DNA from: Syncephalis plumigaleata
Lineage: Eukaryota > Zoopagomycota > Zoopagomycetes > Zoopagales > Piptocephalidaceae
Length of the DNA stretch: 55,286 nt
Assembly: GCA_025201365.1 (NCBI GenBank)
Contig: JAIXMF010000049.1
Location: 1 to 55,286 of the forward strand
Direction: 5' to 3'
Position 1 is the first letter of the stretch. Each line of letters opens with the position of its first letter. The position numbers were made by a program, and so were the translations under genes. Below, one piece after another: positions 1,005 to 42,566 of the stretch. The notes under the pieces were generated by a model. That model saw only the letters and a list, made by a program, of their open reading frames with translations, searched no databases and was not told the DNA's origin.

Positions 1005-2270
1005 ATGAAGTTCTCTGCCGTTATTGCTATTGCCGTCGCCGTTGTCGCTCTCGCCAGTATGGTCGCCGTTGAAGCTAGTCCCGTCTTGGATCGTCGTGGT
1101 ATGTCTGGCTGTGACCCAATCAATTGATGTACTAATTGTAGTCTATTGTTTCATTGTCCACCGATGATTACCGATAGCTCGTAAGTTTACGTGTATTAAA
1201 TGGTTGTTTTGATATGCTAATCACGTTGCAATGGTTATTCTACCTATCAATTGATTAGCTAAATTCAGTAAGCTAGTTTATTGACCATAACAAGCACCAT
1301 GCTGATCATAGTATAATATTTACTCCACCTGCTAAATGGTCAGGTAAACCTGGTAAGCTATTCCATTGACTATAACAAATACCGTACTAATCATACTACA
1401 AATTGATTATATGTGATTACATTTACAAGCTTTTGTAAGTTCAAGCAATAATTGTAACGCATTGTATACTGATCACCATATGACGTGTAATCCGCGCATG
1501 TTCGTCTATACCAGTGGGTAAGTTGTCATTCTGATTTTAGCATACGCCGTACTAATTATCATATGGCACATGATTCACGTATACCTGAATACGATAGGGA
1601 GTAAGTCATCATTCTAGTTACGATGTATACGAGGTATTAATTACAATTATGGCGTATGATCCACGTATATTTGTGTCCGTATTAGGTGGTAAGTCACCAT
1701 TCTAATGGTAACGCATAGTCTATCAATTGTAATCTGAAATATATTCTTTACGTTCGCTTGTTTACAGAATAGTGTAAGCTGTCATTCTAATGACGTCGAA
1801 TGATGTACTAATTACGATGTGACATATGGTCCCGTATGGCTGTGCGTAGCAAGATGTAAGTGACTATTCTAATTGTTACCAGCAACGTGCTAATTGTAAG
1901 TTGAAATGCACTCCACGCATGTTTGTAAACGATAGAAAGTAAGCTATCATCTCGGCTGTAATGCATCGTAAAGTACTTACATTAGACTATTATGACCATC
2001 GATTTGCGTATATTTGTGCACGATAGCTTGTAAGTCAATATTCCGATCGTAATACATGCGGTACTAACAAACTATAACGCATGATCTACGCATATTTATC
2101 CATAACAGTGGGCAAGTTAATGTTTCGGGCTTACCATATAATGCGCTAATAATGATATCGTACATGATTTACGTATATTTACGCATAATAGGAAGTAAGT
2201 CGACACACCCCACTGTGATACAAACGTACTAATTACAGTATGGATTGCATCACTCATACAGGGACTTTAA
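1005..2270 (+). CDS. secreted mini-protein encoded by one exon plus many microexons
   Basis: Unrecognised gene. Exon 1 (1005-1098) encodes a textbook signal peptide (MKFSAVIAIAVAVVALASM..., cleavage near VEA-SP) followed by DRR, a Kex2-like dibasic site. It ends at a gtatgt 5' splice site. Downstream are 14 tiny segments, each between an AG and a gtaag-type site: 1178-1180, 1259-1267, 1344-1352, 1430-1434, 1515-1517, 1598-1600, 1686-1688, 1768-1773, 1850-1855, 1936-1938, 2027-2029, 2109-2111, 2192-2194 and 2262-2273. Read in order they stay open and add 22 residues after DRR, beginning APKFSK and ending KLWEGL, with a TAA at 2268-2270. The product would be a 53-aa secreted peptide precursor. 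A last exon from 2325 would then be 3' UTR. The signal-peptide exon is solid; the splicing of the microexons is inference. The alternative is one long intron carrying a minisatellite full of decoy splice sites. Confidence 0.5.
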
Positions 2271-2324
2271 ATGGTGAGTAATTAACTATAGGATTGTACT
2301 CATACTAATCCATTACGATTACAG
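1099..2324 (+). repeat. tandem array of about 15 intron-like units, period 79-91 bp
   Basis: Donor sites occur at 1099 (gtatgt), 1181, 1268, 1353, 1435, 1518, 1601, 1689, 1774, 1856, 1939, 2030, 2112 (a GC-type donor, gcaagt), 2195 and 2274 (gtgagt), almost all spaced 82-88 nt. Each unit repeats the same order: gtaagt, a cattctaat-like stretch, a tactaat-like branch site, a catgatycacgtat-like stretch, then cgatag, cag or similar, and the microexon. The branch-site to AG distance is near 47 nt in most units, against roughly 10-25 nt in ordinary introns of this window. Units are diverged but clearly homologous, so the array grew by tandem duplication of an intron plus a tiny exon. Confidence 0.8.
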
Positions 2325-2700
2325 AACAAGGCAAGGACACCATCAAGTAGATATTATAGGTATTCAAGTCAAGAATGAATTGGTGCAAGACCCTTTAGTG
2401 TCCATGCCATTCAAGTCATTATTCCTTGGTACAACAACAAACATATCTACAAGCTCATTATTCAATTATTTATTGAATAAATATGTCCTATTCTAAGCAT
2501 TATAATCATTGCTTCATTCTACTTTAGAAATACACACACACAACTATTGTTAACATGAAAACATAGAATGTTGATGATGTTAAGTTATACGATTTACTAA
2601 ATGAAAAATGGACCACTCTAATAATGTTATTTACATTGAATAAATCAATGAATATAAAAAGGAATAATGACTACTGCTACGCTCTCCTTAGCACGCTTGT
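2325..2700. other. terminal exon / 3' region of the microexon gene
   Basis: A normal-looking acceptor (tactaat branch, then attacag at 2324) opens a final exon. In the frame followed above it is untranslated. In another frame it would read NEQGKDTIK and stop, but that frame meets a stop inside the 1768-1773 microexon. AATAAA-like sequence near 2476 may serve for polyadenylation. Confidence 0.35.
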
Positions 2701-3980
2701 TTATAGATTCAATACCATCCAACCGCTAAGCACTAGACCGGTCATCGAGATGATGGTCACGGTCGAGCTTGCACTGCCGAATGGTGCGTGTACGGAGCTA
2801 GCGGTATTCGCGTCATCACCTGCTGTAGCACCCATTTTCTTAGTACCTGGCACTACTACCAATTGCGTAGGCGTTACCACCACGAGTTGAGTTCCACTCG
2901 TAATCGTGCTGGGAGGTTTACGGATGGTGAGCGAGCCATCGGTACCAGATGTGGTCGTGGAACCATCCTTACCAATGCTGGAGGTAGGTGTGGATGGACT
3001 ACTGTTGTTGTCCGAGTCGGATGAGGATGGCTTGCCACCACTGCTAGTACTGGTGCTAGTGCTAGTGCTGCTGCTACTAGAGCTACTGCTGCTGCTGCTA
3101 CTGCTACCATTACCGCTGTCGGAAGCCGATGCCGAAGGACTTGGATTGCCTGACGATGGTGCGTCTTTCTTGTCACCTATATTAGATAAAGGTACATTTT
3201 GTCCATTGGTAAGTTGGGATAGAACATTGTTTGTAGTAGATATCGCACCATTGTTATTGGCATTTTTAGAAGAGTCCGTAGTACTCTTATTGTCACCACC
3301 ACTACCAGAAGTACTAGTGGTAGTAGTGGATGTGGAGGTGGTGCCTGCACCTAAAGATGGAACTATGAGTGGAATGAACAGAAAAGAGCACACACACACT
3401 ACAATCAATCAACACGAATATCAAAAATGCTCACATCCTTTTCCTTTCCCATTTAGTTGTGGTACACTACTAATGATGTTCGCAACGAGAATGACCCGTG
3501 ACACATCATTTCTTATTCATAGATCGACATCCATTCTAGGTGACAATCAATGATTAAAGAATAGAATAGAATGAATGAACATGATATGCTTGTCATTTAT
3601 AATGAGTATCCTATTAGCAACCACATCCATTCATACTACTATTCTCTATCACATGCATGTGGTGTGTGTGTGCCATGAACACATGTCACAGTTGAACATG
3701 ATCAATCATTCTATTCACATAATTGCCAAGGCCATTGATACGCGTGTCATTTTTATCCCTTATTCTCGCTCCTCTTTAGATAGACAATCATTATCCTCTA
3801 TCTAAGAGGAGTGTAGGTGTGTGTGGCTATAGAAGAATGACGTTACTTACCAGCTTTATCCTTCAACAATGAATCGAGAAATCCTTTGTTCTCTTGTGGT
3901 ACAGCTTCAGTAATACTGACAGCCGTAAGAGCCACCACAAGCAAACCGATCATGGCAAGGGTACGAGTTGAGAAATGCAT
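2701..3980 (-). CDS. GPI-anchored Ser/Thr-rich cell-wall protein
   Basis: Two exons, 3980-3851 and 3350-2701, joined across a 500-nt intron (gtaagtaacg to ccatctttag) give 259 aa. The N-terminus (MHFSTRTLAMIGLLVVALTA) is a signal peptide. The middle is a low-complexity Ser/Thr/Gly/Asp region with poly-Ser and ST repeats, a likely O-mannosylation stalk. The C-terminus (SSTVTIISMTGLVLSGWMV) is hydrophobic after a small-residue omega-site region, as in GPI signals. The role is presumably structural at the plasma membrane or cell wall; no catalytic domain is visible. The intron is several times longer than others here, so a missed small exon is possible. An in-frame TTG at 3408 is not a credible start. 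Confidence 0.75.
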
Positions 3981-4093
3981 GTTGATAGTTGGAGTATCAC
4001 GCTGACGACGATAGAAAGCAGAACGTAGAACTGTATGGAATGATGGTGTGTGTACGTGTATAGGAAAGTCGGAACGAGAGAATGAAAGCGCTG

Positions 4094-38492: not shown

Positions 38493-39244
38493 TTATTCAG
38501 TAGAAGACTTGTAGGAGTAGACGTAAAGGAAAACAGGCAGACAAGCCTCTTCATCGAATATAGCGTATTCATCGTAATTAAGGCCGCAATTGCCTGCTTT
38601 ACCGTAAATACTATGATAGCCCGATGGTAAGCATTTACGATTTAGCTCCATATTAGATGGGGTGTACATGCGACCGAGTACAACATCCGTTAGGAACATG
38701 CCACGCACTTGACGATATGGATTCGACGATAGTGTTGATACCTAGAATGATATATGCAACATATTGATTATAATTGTCATAATTGTAATATAGCATTTAT
38801 TCATGAATAGCTTACACGAGTGCCCGAGTAATAATGGCATTTGGATGCGTATGGAGAAAAATAGATGCCATGACCTAGTCGTTGCCACTTGCTAGCACGA
38901 CGATTCTTACCGACGCATGCCATTTTGAATGACATTCTAACGATGTTGCAGCCCTCGCAGTTATCCTTGCAAAGTTGATCGGCTGGTTTGTCGGCCAGTT
39001 GGCATTGAAAGGACGTTCCGTGGAATAGACGATACTGGTGGAGTGTCTCGACCCCTAACTCAGCACTTAAGTATTCACGATAGTCGTGATATCGCTTTCG
39101 TATCTTCTCTGGATAGACAATACGAAATATCCGTTCGACATTTAGATCAGTAACATTGTTCTTTACCCAAGAACCTAATAGCATGGATTTTGCATTCTTG
39201 AATTCTTGGTCGTCAGACAATAATTCTTGTAGATAAGACATCAT
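38493..39244 (-). CDS. PARP-like ADP-ribosyltransferase with intact H-Y-E triad
   Basis: Two exons (39244-38816, 38741-38493) give 225 aa, essentially a bare catalytic domain. The PARP-type triad is present: His75 in YRLFHGTSF, Tyr128 in RLGHGIYFSPYASKC, Glu201 in YDEYAIFDEEACLP, then the closing strand VFLYVYSY. Four cysteines after HGT (81, 92, 96, 99; CQLADK ... CKDNCEGCNIVRMSF) form a probable zinc site, as in a Cys-containing PARP-like family known from fungi and plants. It should transfer ADP-ribose from NAD+; the target is unknown. It is divergent from the TIR-like/NADAR gene across 174 bp and convergent with QTRT1 at 24 bp. The double ATG leaves the start at 39244 or 39241. Confidence 0.8.
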
Positions 39245-39418
39245 GTAAGCATGAACGAATGACCAAAGCTACAAGATAGAATGTTGCGTTTTTATTGGAA
39301 TTGTCATATAATAGATGACTAGCCATGGTGTTGATCATAATCACTAGTCAGCCAAGCAATTGATATATATATATGATATATGAATACGCATTAGTCATCG
39401 CTATATAATAACATTTGA
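39245..39418. promoter_or_regulatory. short divergent promoter shared by the ART and NADAR genes
   Basis: Only 174 bp separate the two start codons. A TA-rich tract (TATATATATATGATATATG near 39363-39381) could serve as the core promoter for either side. Shared control is inference. Confidence 0.5.
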
Positions 39419-41341: not shown

Positions 41342-41681
41342 GGTAAACAAGTGGATACGCGTGAGTTAAAACAAAAAAGGTGAACAACAATAATAAAAGA
41401 AGGAGAGAGAAGAATGGAATCAAAGAAGCAGTAGCAATATCAATTGACACTGTATAGCAGAAATGTGTGTTTGTTTGTTAAACAAATCTATGATGTTTTT
41501 TATAATGATCATGATTAAATACGACGGTAACACACTAGGTACATGATCGTTTGATAAAATGAATTGCCCTACGAGTAAGCAATAAAAAGCGTGTATATAC
41601 CATTGTATGCCATGACCATGATTGTCATCCTTCAGCTTACATCGATTGTTTGTCTATACGTGTATACGTATCGTTTCTCAT
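41342..41681. promoter_or_regulatory. divergent promoter region, NDUFA11-like / ART-like
   Basis: 340 bp between divergent genes, with a purine-rich tract (AGAAGGAGAGAGAAGAATGG near 41398). No other gene seen. Confidence 0.4.
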
Positions 41682-42566
41682 ATGCCTAAATCATCTGCTG
41701 CCGATACGCAACTTGTTACGAGTCAGCTCGCTAACAAATGCTCCAACGAATGTTTCTTCCCTAGTTGCAGACGGGAACGTTGCCAGAAGAACGGAAAGAC
41801 ATGTATGTTCTGCTCTAGGGGTTGTACCATGCTATGGCGTGCGATGCTTGCCCGAGTGGCACCACCCATAGATACGACCTTCCGAGATACCGCACTGTGC
41901 ATGAATAGAAATTGCCATCTGCCACGTTATAAGGATCCTGTTAGCGCAATGTGCTATAGCTATTGTAGTCGTCGCTGTGCCTTGACCGATGTGAACAACA
42001 AGGATGTGCCGCGCCTCATCAGTTTGGATGAGAATAACATTGAATACGCTCGTGTATCGAGTAAATTCCAACTTACAATGACTGTACCAGTGGCGAGCAT
42101 GGACATCTACAAGATACAAATGTCAAAGACTCTACAGGAGAGGTATAACGATTTTGACGAGCAAACCGGATCAGATGGCCAAATGCTGGAGTACTTTCAT
42201 GGTACCACGTTCAATGATAGGATTGAGCATAGCAGTAGCAGCTCGTGTGGTACATCTAGCTGCAAGGTGTGTGGAATATTGCGGTATGGCTTTCTACTTG
42301 CTCATGCAGTATCTGGTAAGTTAGCGAGCACTATATATACATTTATATTTATAGATTAATGAATGTTCTATTCATGATTGTAGGACGAAAGTTCTGGCTG
42401 GCTAGACAATCAGCGATATCGCATGGTTACGCAGGCAATAGCAACATTAAATCAATGTTCCTGTGCAATGTGATAAAAACCGCAAGCATCCAGAAAAATG
42501 CAGATATCATTACGGTGGACGAGGAACCCGTAAGTACTTATCGTAACCATATCCATTGTTCCATTT

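Follow-up and report, generated by a model that had tools for sequence, protein, structure and literature searches.

Very short exons are generally considered hard for the spliceosome. Among the closest described systems are the microexon genes (MEGs) of schistosomes, which, in the accessible part of the source (PMC10526429), are described as secreted, having a conserved signal peptide and many very short exons mostly of 3n length, and being hard to annotate. The same part of that source gives 35 genes with 10-20 very short exons each, exon sizes of 3-81 bp or 6-81 bp with most at 15 bp, and introns of 0.1-5 kb, the longest being in the centre (PMC10526429). The bicycle genes of aphids, according to the accessible part of PMC9168663, are fast-evolving putative effectors with many small internal exons and ~17 exons on average, and one bicycle-related gene has over 100 microexons. 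A functional fungal microexon is reported in Xlr2 of Trichoderma virens (PMC11121469).

Here, we describe an array of tandem introns in a 55,286-nucleotide stretch of DNA (the window, contig JAIXMF010000049.1) of Syncephalis plumigaleata, a fungus placed in Zoopagomycota, Piptocephalidaceae, whose genus is mycoparasitic according to the accessible part of PMC10386755. Judging from the DNA sequence, the array is with high probability a spliceosomal microexon gene that belongs to a large secreted-peptide family of this species, and splicing is very likely the mechanism by which it is read. No account of this gene family was found among the matches listed in searches of the open-access PMC literature, nor was any open-access PMC paper found that holds both the word "introns" and the species name.

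Layout of the window array

The window gene as parsed consists of a leader exon, an array of tandem intron-plus-microexon units and a terminal exon (Table 1). The array introns are of the GT(GC)-AG type and 67-88 nt long, and the segments between them measure, in order, 3, 9, 9, 5, 3, 3, 3, 6, 6, 3, 3, 3, 3 and 12 nt. The 15 donors that the original prediction had placed 79-91 nt apart are found with that spacing at 1099, 1181, 1268, 1353, 1435, 1518, 1601, 1689, 1774, 1856, 1939, 2030, 2112, 2195 and 2274, the last one being GTGAGT. Eight segments are a single codon long, the very number predicted, and eleven of the 14, not ten, are 6 nt or shorter; the TACTAAT-like site said to be in each unit is present in most of them and weak in some (e.g., in the introns starting at 1689 and 1939).

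Table 1. Predicted features of the window gene (positions are those of the window)
Feature	Positions	Strand	Remarks
Exon 1	1005..1098	+	leader MKFSAVIAIAVAVVALASMVAVEASPVLDRR and base 1 of the codon that follows (phase 1)
Tandem array, 14 intron+microexon units of ~82 nt each	1099..2273	+	donor spacing
Intron 1	1099..1177	+	GTATGT...GATAG
Microexon 1, CTC	1178..1180	+	splice parse
Microexon 2, CTAAATTCA	1259..1267	+	splice parse
Microexon 3, GTAAACCTG	1344..1352	+	splice parse
Microexon 4, CTTTT	1430..1434	+	5-nt exon that switches the frame from phase 1 to 0
Microexon 5, TGG (Trp)	1515..1517	+	splice parse
Microexon 6, GGA (Gly)	1598..1600	+	splice parse
Microexon 7, GTG (Val)	1686..1688	+	splice parse
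Microexon 8, AATAGT	1768..1773	+	first-AG rule; alternative T at 1773, chosen by DP parses
Microexon 9, CAAGAT	1850..1855	+	first-AG rule; alternative AT at 1854-1855, chosen by DP parses
Microexon 10, AAA (Lys)	1936..1938	+	splice parse
Microexon 11, CTT (Leu)	2027..2029	+	splice parse
Microexon 12, TGG (Trp)	2109..2111	+	splice parse; GC donor next
Microexon 13, GAA (Glu)	2192..2194	+	splice parse
Microexon 14, GGACTTTAAATG	2262..2273	+	stop codon TAA at 2268-2270; homology of last donor
Last intron, 51 nt	2274..2324	+	branch-like site near AG
Terminal exon with AACAAGGCAAGGACACCATCAAGTAG and the conserved part after it	2325..2500	+	3' UTR in the microexon frame; 3' end approximate

The motif G[TC]AAG[TC] occurs 14 times between 1099 and 2280 (13 array donors and one intronic site at 1896) against an expectation of 1.09 in 1000 dinucleotide shuffles, the maximum of which was 5, and the longest run of 76-92-nt spacings between such motifs in the window is 8 on the plus strand versus 1 on the minus strand. 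The array at 1099-2273 is absent from the output of Tandem Repeats Finder, and an Rfam search with a tRNA scan returned two tRNAs and nothing else. Two details of the parse are ambiguous. Microexons 8 and 9 are read as AATAGT and CAAGAT with the first AG or as T and AT with later AGs, either pair keeping the frame, and the donor of microexon 14 lies 4 nt later in the dynamic programming (DP) parses (a 16-nt exon) with the stop codon unchanged. The predicted product is MKFSAVIAIAVAVVALASMVAVEASPVLDRRAPKFSKPAFWGVNSQDKLWEGL, in which three residues (NSQD/Y) are uncertain and no cysteine occurs; spliced forms would be expected to contain the junction string ..CGTCGTGCTCCTAAA..

The window contig seems to be a haplotig, i.e., a second copy, of part of contig C35: the stretches flanking the array are 98% identical to C35, and the amidase encoded in the window is matched at 100% on what seems to be that contig. 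The gene would therefore be present twice in the assembly, once uninterrupted and once interrupted, since the copy on C35 (L021) carries a 2,164-base insertion within its array (L021:1298-3461). The insert resembles a LINE-type retroelement: it is flanked by a 15-base duplication, its tail is rich in A, and its opposite strand contains an open frame of 649 aa. A Pfam search with the 649-aa frame gave no match above the cut-off. Elsewhere in the window, a minus-strand frame at 2701-4000 has a Ser/Thr-rich product with a hydrophobic C-terminal end, perhaps a surface protein, and no Pfam match at E 0.1 was obtained for the stretch 2701-3408. The open frames at 38801-39268 and 41622-42359 show by eye what we take to be a PARP-type catalytic likeness.

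A genome-wide family, its reading frame and its splice signals

A search of the window's own assembly (32.6 Mb, 383 contigs) with the window gene gave at least 108 matches (40 of 310 candidates were scored) and 38 loci besides the window. The array first noticed as a single gene is real, and its scope has widened to a genome-wide family. The leader exon matched in all 38 loci, a set chosen by similarity, the exon-1 stretch being 84-100% identical across these paralogous loci, which were picked for their likeness to the window gene. A terminal-exon match lay in range in 34 of the 38; it was absent in L026, L029 and L050, and out of range in L056. Five more loci were then added, which makes 44 including the window gene. 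A family gene starts with a conserved leader exon whose last codons encode RR, continues with tandem introns of ~80 nt and closes with a terminal exon that is conserved as well, and the 35 complete genes have from 8 to 51 introns, with a median of 23. In the whole genome, the exon-1 end with its donor motif occurs 103 times at up to two mismatches (22 in the control), 74 of these being exact, the terminal-exon motif 178 times at up to three mismatches (control 0) and the unit pattern, counted irrespective of array membership, 267 times (control 0); probable allelic copies are included in all of these numbers, and intronless members have the terminal exon too.

All organism-named public proteins with the family leader come from S. 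plumigaleata. Five environmental proteins (P0139, P0140, P0141, P0143 and P0145) have a diverged leader followed by G(T/M)SG(H/Y)G(H/R/Y)I(N/G/D), and read-through of intron 1 in P0121 and P0132 gives GMSGRDPIN, which is like the sequence after the leader in these five; other organisms thus seem to have the leader and the beginning of intron 1 too. Another environmental protein, P0144, has the same leader type; its mature part is contiguous, measures ~95 aa and is rich in Lys, Glu and Ala.

Forty of the 44 loci were parsed by dynamic programming with donor and acceptor profiles, multiples of three being given no preference; outside this set are L021 (insertion), L040 (altered exon-1 end), and L059 and L063 (exon 1 unrecognised). 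The parse contains 1026 internal exons, 865 of which (84%) are exactly 3 nt long and 977 multiples of three; the other lengths are 9 nt (69 exons), 5 nt (28), 6 nt (19), 12 nt (15) and 2 nt (14), plus 16 others. Near the start of 36 of the 40 genes lies a frame-switch exon of 5 nt (28 genes) or 2 nt (8 genes) that takes the frame from phase 1 to phase 0, so that each later 3-nt exon is a whole codon; it is missing from the parse in L022, L039, L043 and L060. The original equation of a 3-nt exon with a codon holds after this switch and fails before it.

None of the 816 3-nt exons from the fourth onward (39 genes) is a stop codon, against 28.9 expected from position-specific composition. After removal of near-duplicate genes the count is 0 of 501 against 17.7, and 0 against 11.6 for TAA and TGA, which were counted alone because the parse could under-call TAG. 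The first parse gave 0 of 643 stops in register (22.5 expected), 8 of 603 in the +1 register, 67 of 603 in the remaining one and 1 of 643 antisense, the +1 and antisense counts being low because third positions are seldom purine. In 28 of the 40 genes the frame stays open until a stop that lies exactly in the last microexon, and five are open to the end of the parse. Early stops are present in seven (L022, L032, L039, L043, L047, L049 and L060), owing to competing acceptors, an AG-less switch exon, a leader deletion or 36-40-nt exons left unparsed, so that the family may include dead copies or the parse may contain errors.

The repeat unit was profiled on 207 distinct units that are delimited by two G[TC]AAG[TC] sites and exactly 83 nt long, a selection that fixes the donor. 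The three microexon positions carry 0.03, 0.04 and 0.14 bit and most intron positions 0.3-1.7 bit, and the AG ahead of the next donor is nearly invariant; the few weak intron positions include 31 (0.16 bit) and 70 (0.12 bit), and there is no other weak run of three positions. In 598 units, AG occurs 104 times between the branch site and the 3' splice site against 1051.8 expected by composition, an about tenfold depletion (GA occurs 1050 times), and 386 times against 941.8 between the donor and the branch site, unit trials being not independent because the copies are related. Units of different genes are ~51% identical without gaps. The median branch-to-AG distance is 43 nt in array units versus ~16 nt in the last intron. 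Features of U2-type introns are thus present, namely GT/GC-AG ends, a branch-like site and AG exclusion downstream of it, and, as donors and AGs are imposed by unit selection and by the parse, it is the branch-like site and the AG exclusion that constitute independent evidence.

In the scheme that we propose, the leader exon encodes a putative signal peptide and would direct secretion, the dibasic RR at its end is a likely Kex2-type site after which a Kex2-like protease would cut, and the mature peptide would be written mainly one codon per 3-nt exon between tandem ~80-nt introns, the 5- or 2-nt exon setting phase 0 and the last microexon carrying the stop. Exons of 3 nt are too small for exon definition, and the introns are therefore probably defined by their own GTAAGT donor and branch site, the TACTAAT-like sequence being followed by AG ~43 nt downstream. 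This long branch-to-AG distance may let U2 bind without a clash with U1 on the next donor.

Predicted peptides, intronless relatives and alternative explanations

The leader MKFS..EASPxLxRR is conserved and hydrophobic, as seen by eye and in alignment, and the predicted sequences after RR can be exemplified by EHPLLKGSKCDGHVCCKQDWAGAVCLPDPDEKDPMIEARKQAEKERQAINDRMKNRH in L025, GRKTRPRRPRPPHGHEPTCSDGYHYVWSWETEQCCPNVGSGPCYDV in L027 and AEGPCIKISNRCCYENSDKPGTLFCDDR in L058. Cysteine is present in 14 of the 28 open genes, always as two or four residues (12 distinct peptides without close pairs), and ten of the 11 four-cysteine peptides have the pattern C-Xn-CC-Xn-C, the exception being L061; L024, which is outside the 28 open genes, has one cysteine. 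These patterns emerge when single codons are joined in order and are otherwise absent, and the cysteines may form disulphides. Cysteine makes up 8.6% and tryptophan 5.0% of microexon codons, versus 1.4% and 1.2% in four genes of the window. In a Pfam search with nine predicted peptides no match exceeded the cut-off; L027 had a sub-threshold match to Conotoxin (E 0.012, 17 bits, cut-off 25.1).

The choice of microexon codons in the first parse is unlike that of ordinary genes: TTT stands for 20 of 20 Phe, TAT for 21 of 21 Tyr, CAA for 17 of 17 Gln and AGA for 12 of 20 Arg. Since the TTT and TAT preferences are opposite to those of the actin exon (TTC 8 of 9, TAC 11 of 13) and TTT is opposite to the leader exons (TTC 35 of 35), an extra constraint on microexon codons is suggested, which perhaps comes from splicing; coding alone does not explain the choice. 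Where a synonymous choice exists, a pyrimidine ending is found in 240 of 279 microexon codons, 917 of 996 leader-exon codons, 372 of 477 codons of intronless mature parts, 131 of 175 codons of the actin exon and 937 of 1923 codons of four window genes. A "codon cassette" model, in which the same codon means the same unit lineage, was rejected as the main cause of codon choice because its effect, although clear, is small: units of different genes with the same codon have an upstream identity of 0.531 versus 0.505 (z 4.7; downstream z 1.8), and the nearest-neighbour unit has the same codon in 103 of 462 cases by the upstream part and 82 of 462 by the downstream part versus 16.8 by chance. Correlation of codon usage with the four window genes proved uninformative as a coding test, the in-register value of 0.34 being close to the antisense one (0.36) and lower than those of the other registers (0.45 and 0.58).

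It is unlikely, though conceivable, that microexons are often skipped or mixed, in which case the arrays would be mainly a combinatorial isoform device, as proposed for schistosome MEGs. Most exons after the switch are of 3n length, so that skipping keeps the frame, and a public protein model, P0122 (BDF22DRAFT_685685), does lack some exons. In favour of the microexon gene, it aligns with the frame-blind peptide of L034 over 80 columns at 90%, with gaps at the missing codons, and, counted by residue, contains 38 of the 41 3-nt exons that follow the switch in L034. It leaves out exons 4, 12 and 40 as well as exon 31 (6 nt) and exon 46 (2 nt), and it partly reads the last intron. As it skips exons and enters the last intron, P0122 is probably an ab initio computed model and not proof of a transcript, and the even cysteine numbers and the C..CC..C arrangement fit nearly complete inclusion. 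As for the other public proteins, P0123 matches L045 a few residues past the leader and the rest match barely past it, in a comparison that used first-parse peptides and in which most such members come from loci outside the parsed set.

Intronless members of the family were reached via the public proteins P0130 and P0142, and 20 further short loci were added to give 22. Twenty of these lack intron 1, the leader being continued directly by an open mature part; L072 retains intron 1, and the leader of L079 is shifted. After CGTCGT, GCTCCTCAA or GCCCCTCAA follows in 6 of the 22 and GCTCCTAAA in 2. When introns 1 and 2 are taken out of the array genes, 7 of 40 yield GCTCCTCAA and the window gene yields GCTCCTAAA, so the joined string of the window gene is contiguous in the intronless L066 and L067. 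At the other end, TAAGCA is joined directly to AACAAGAC, AGCAAGAC or GACAAGAC in nine loci (L064, L066, L067, L068, L076, L078, L080, L081 and L084), which is the junction predicted on removal of the last intron, and this junction is absent from the other 13; the last microexon of the 35 complete array genes ends in TAAGCA in 20 cases and in TAAGCG in 10. Within the nine, TAAGCA is not the first stop in L064, L066, L068 and L081, and is out of frame in L076. When the mature parts of the 22 loci, intronless or similar, were compared with those of the 28 open array genes, no homology was found, the best match having E 0.019 over 7 aa; these loci therefore confirm the end junctions and not the inner ones. 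The leader-sharing genes L064-L085 are mostly intronless and very diverse in their mature parts, L071 and L081 being cysteine-rich, and L065 and L073 longer and charged.

That so many intronless members share the leader and the 3' part could also mean that introns invaded intronless peptide genes at codon boundaries in an introner-like manner, instead of intronless copies having arisen via spliced cDNA or cDNA recombination. We consider such an invasion improbable. Up to 50 insertions per gene would be needed, the recent changes that are seen are gains and losses of whole units, and intronless mature parts also favour TTT (25 of 29, several of them from the repetitive peptide L075). Reverse transcription may also be available, given the retroelement-like insert in L021, which has a 15-base duplication and a tail rich in A.

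The early stops in 7 of 40 genes and the insertion in L021 would also be expected if most arrays were relics of once-expressed genes; such a decay of the family is very unlikely, since in 28 of the 40 genes the frame stays open as far as the last microexon, and in-register stops are absent from all 816 exons. A minisatellite within one long intron, with exon 1 joined to the terminal exon to encode the leader and (E/G)QDKDIIK, would profit from both exons being in phase 1 and joining in frame without microexons, but is least probable of all: it leaves unexplained the lack of stops, the frame switch, the stops in last microexons, the AG exclusion and the paired cysteines; the frame depends on the repeat (0/816 stops, 28/40 genes open), contrary to what a non-coding minisatellite implies; seven of nine listed one-mismatch terminal exons alter an amino acid of QDKDIIK (by eye), so this frame looks unconstrained; and the intronless terminal exon joins ..TAAGCA in 9 of 22 loci and RRG in none. 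The originally predicted microexon gene of tandem intron-plus-codon units is thus supported by the absence of stops, the frame switch, the stops in last microexons and the paired cysteines, and also by the intronless siblings, which show the end junctions that were predicted.

Unit gain and loss, and comparison with known systems

The prediction that one unit corresponds to one residue agrees with the close copies L028 and L031, which differ by whole units. Their flanks are nearly identical, with differences at 1 of 300 and 0 of 150 sites; a CTT unit that is single in L031 is present twice in L028, the two being 97% alike, and a further GGT unit is found in L031. In 12 of 15 gene pairs, microexon sites differ more than intron sites by a factor of ~1.4 to 2.9, where the pairs overlap, L032 and L049 hold a 40-nt exon left unparsed, and distant pairs align poorly; in the three nearest-identical pairs microexon sites were not more divergent. 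Positive selection on microexons is not proved by these 15 pairs because introns may be constrained.

The peptides would diversify as microexon codons change and as whole intron-plus-codon units are gained or lost in tandem. We are somewhat inclined to regard the arrays as a new class of genes, in which gain or loss of a single unit would be a one-residue indel and the intron scaffold would keep a hypervariable secreted peptide in frame. Such a scaffold could serve as a device for residue-by-residue evolvability, perhaps in an arms race between the mycoparasite and its fungal host, with the peptides presumably acting outside the cell and perhaps on host hyphae. In this fungus, one gene seems to comprise as many as ~50 tiny exons, most of them 3 nt long, in an arrangement that extends across a large family. 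The minimal exon size, the order of intron removal and the role of the branch-to-AG distance become directly testable in the Syncephalis arrays, where tandem duplication of introns would also lead to proteins that evolve in single-residue steps. The probable secreted peptides of a mycoparasite have been hidden from standard annotation, and similar genes may be missed elsewhere.

Conotoxin-like families have a conserved leader, a dibasic site and a variable cysteine-paired mature part, and the Syncephalis genes resemble them in all three; homology is not claimed, the Pfam match lying below the cut-off, and we know of no conotoxin-like mature parts encoded one codon per exon. In the accessible part of PMC11121469, Xlr2 has one regulated microexon in a transcription-factor gene, whereas in Syncephalis an array would encode the product. 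The internal exons of bicycle genes are almost all in phase 2, as far as the accessible part of PMC9168663 goes, and those of Syncephalis are in phase 1 before the switch and phase 0 after it; unlike bicycle genes, Syncephalis has introns that form tandem repeats. The schistosome MEGs are similar in that the internal exons of the Syncephalis genes are very short and mostly multiples of three (977 of 1026); the leader of the Syncephalis genes, conserved and hydrophobic by eye and alignment, may be a signal peptide. The MEGs differ in that 84% of the Syncephalis internal exons are exactly 3 nt, that a complete gene has up to 50 internal exons, that the introns are tandem copies of ~80 nt in place of the long introns of MEGs, and that the organism is a fungus. 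Word-seeded searches of public proteins with the leader, an indirect comparison of short peptides, gave no trematode protein among the matches listed. By this analogy, the Syncephalis arrays would work like schistosome MEGs in a more extreme form, the likeness that is seen being one of architecture.
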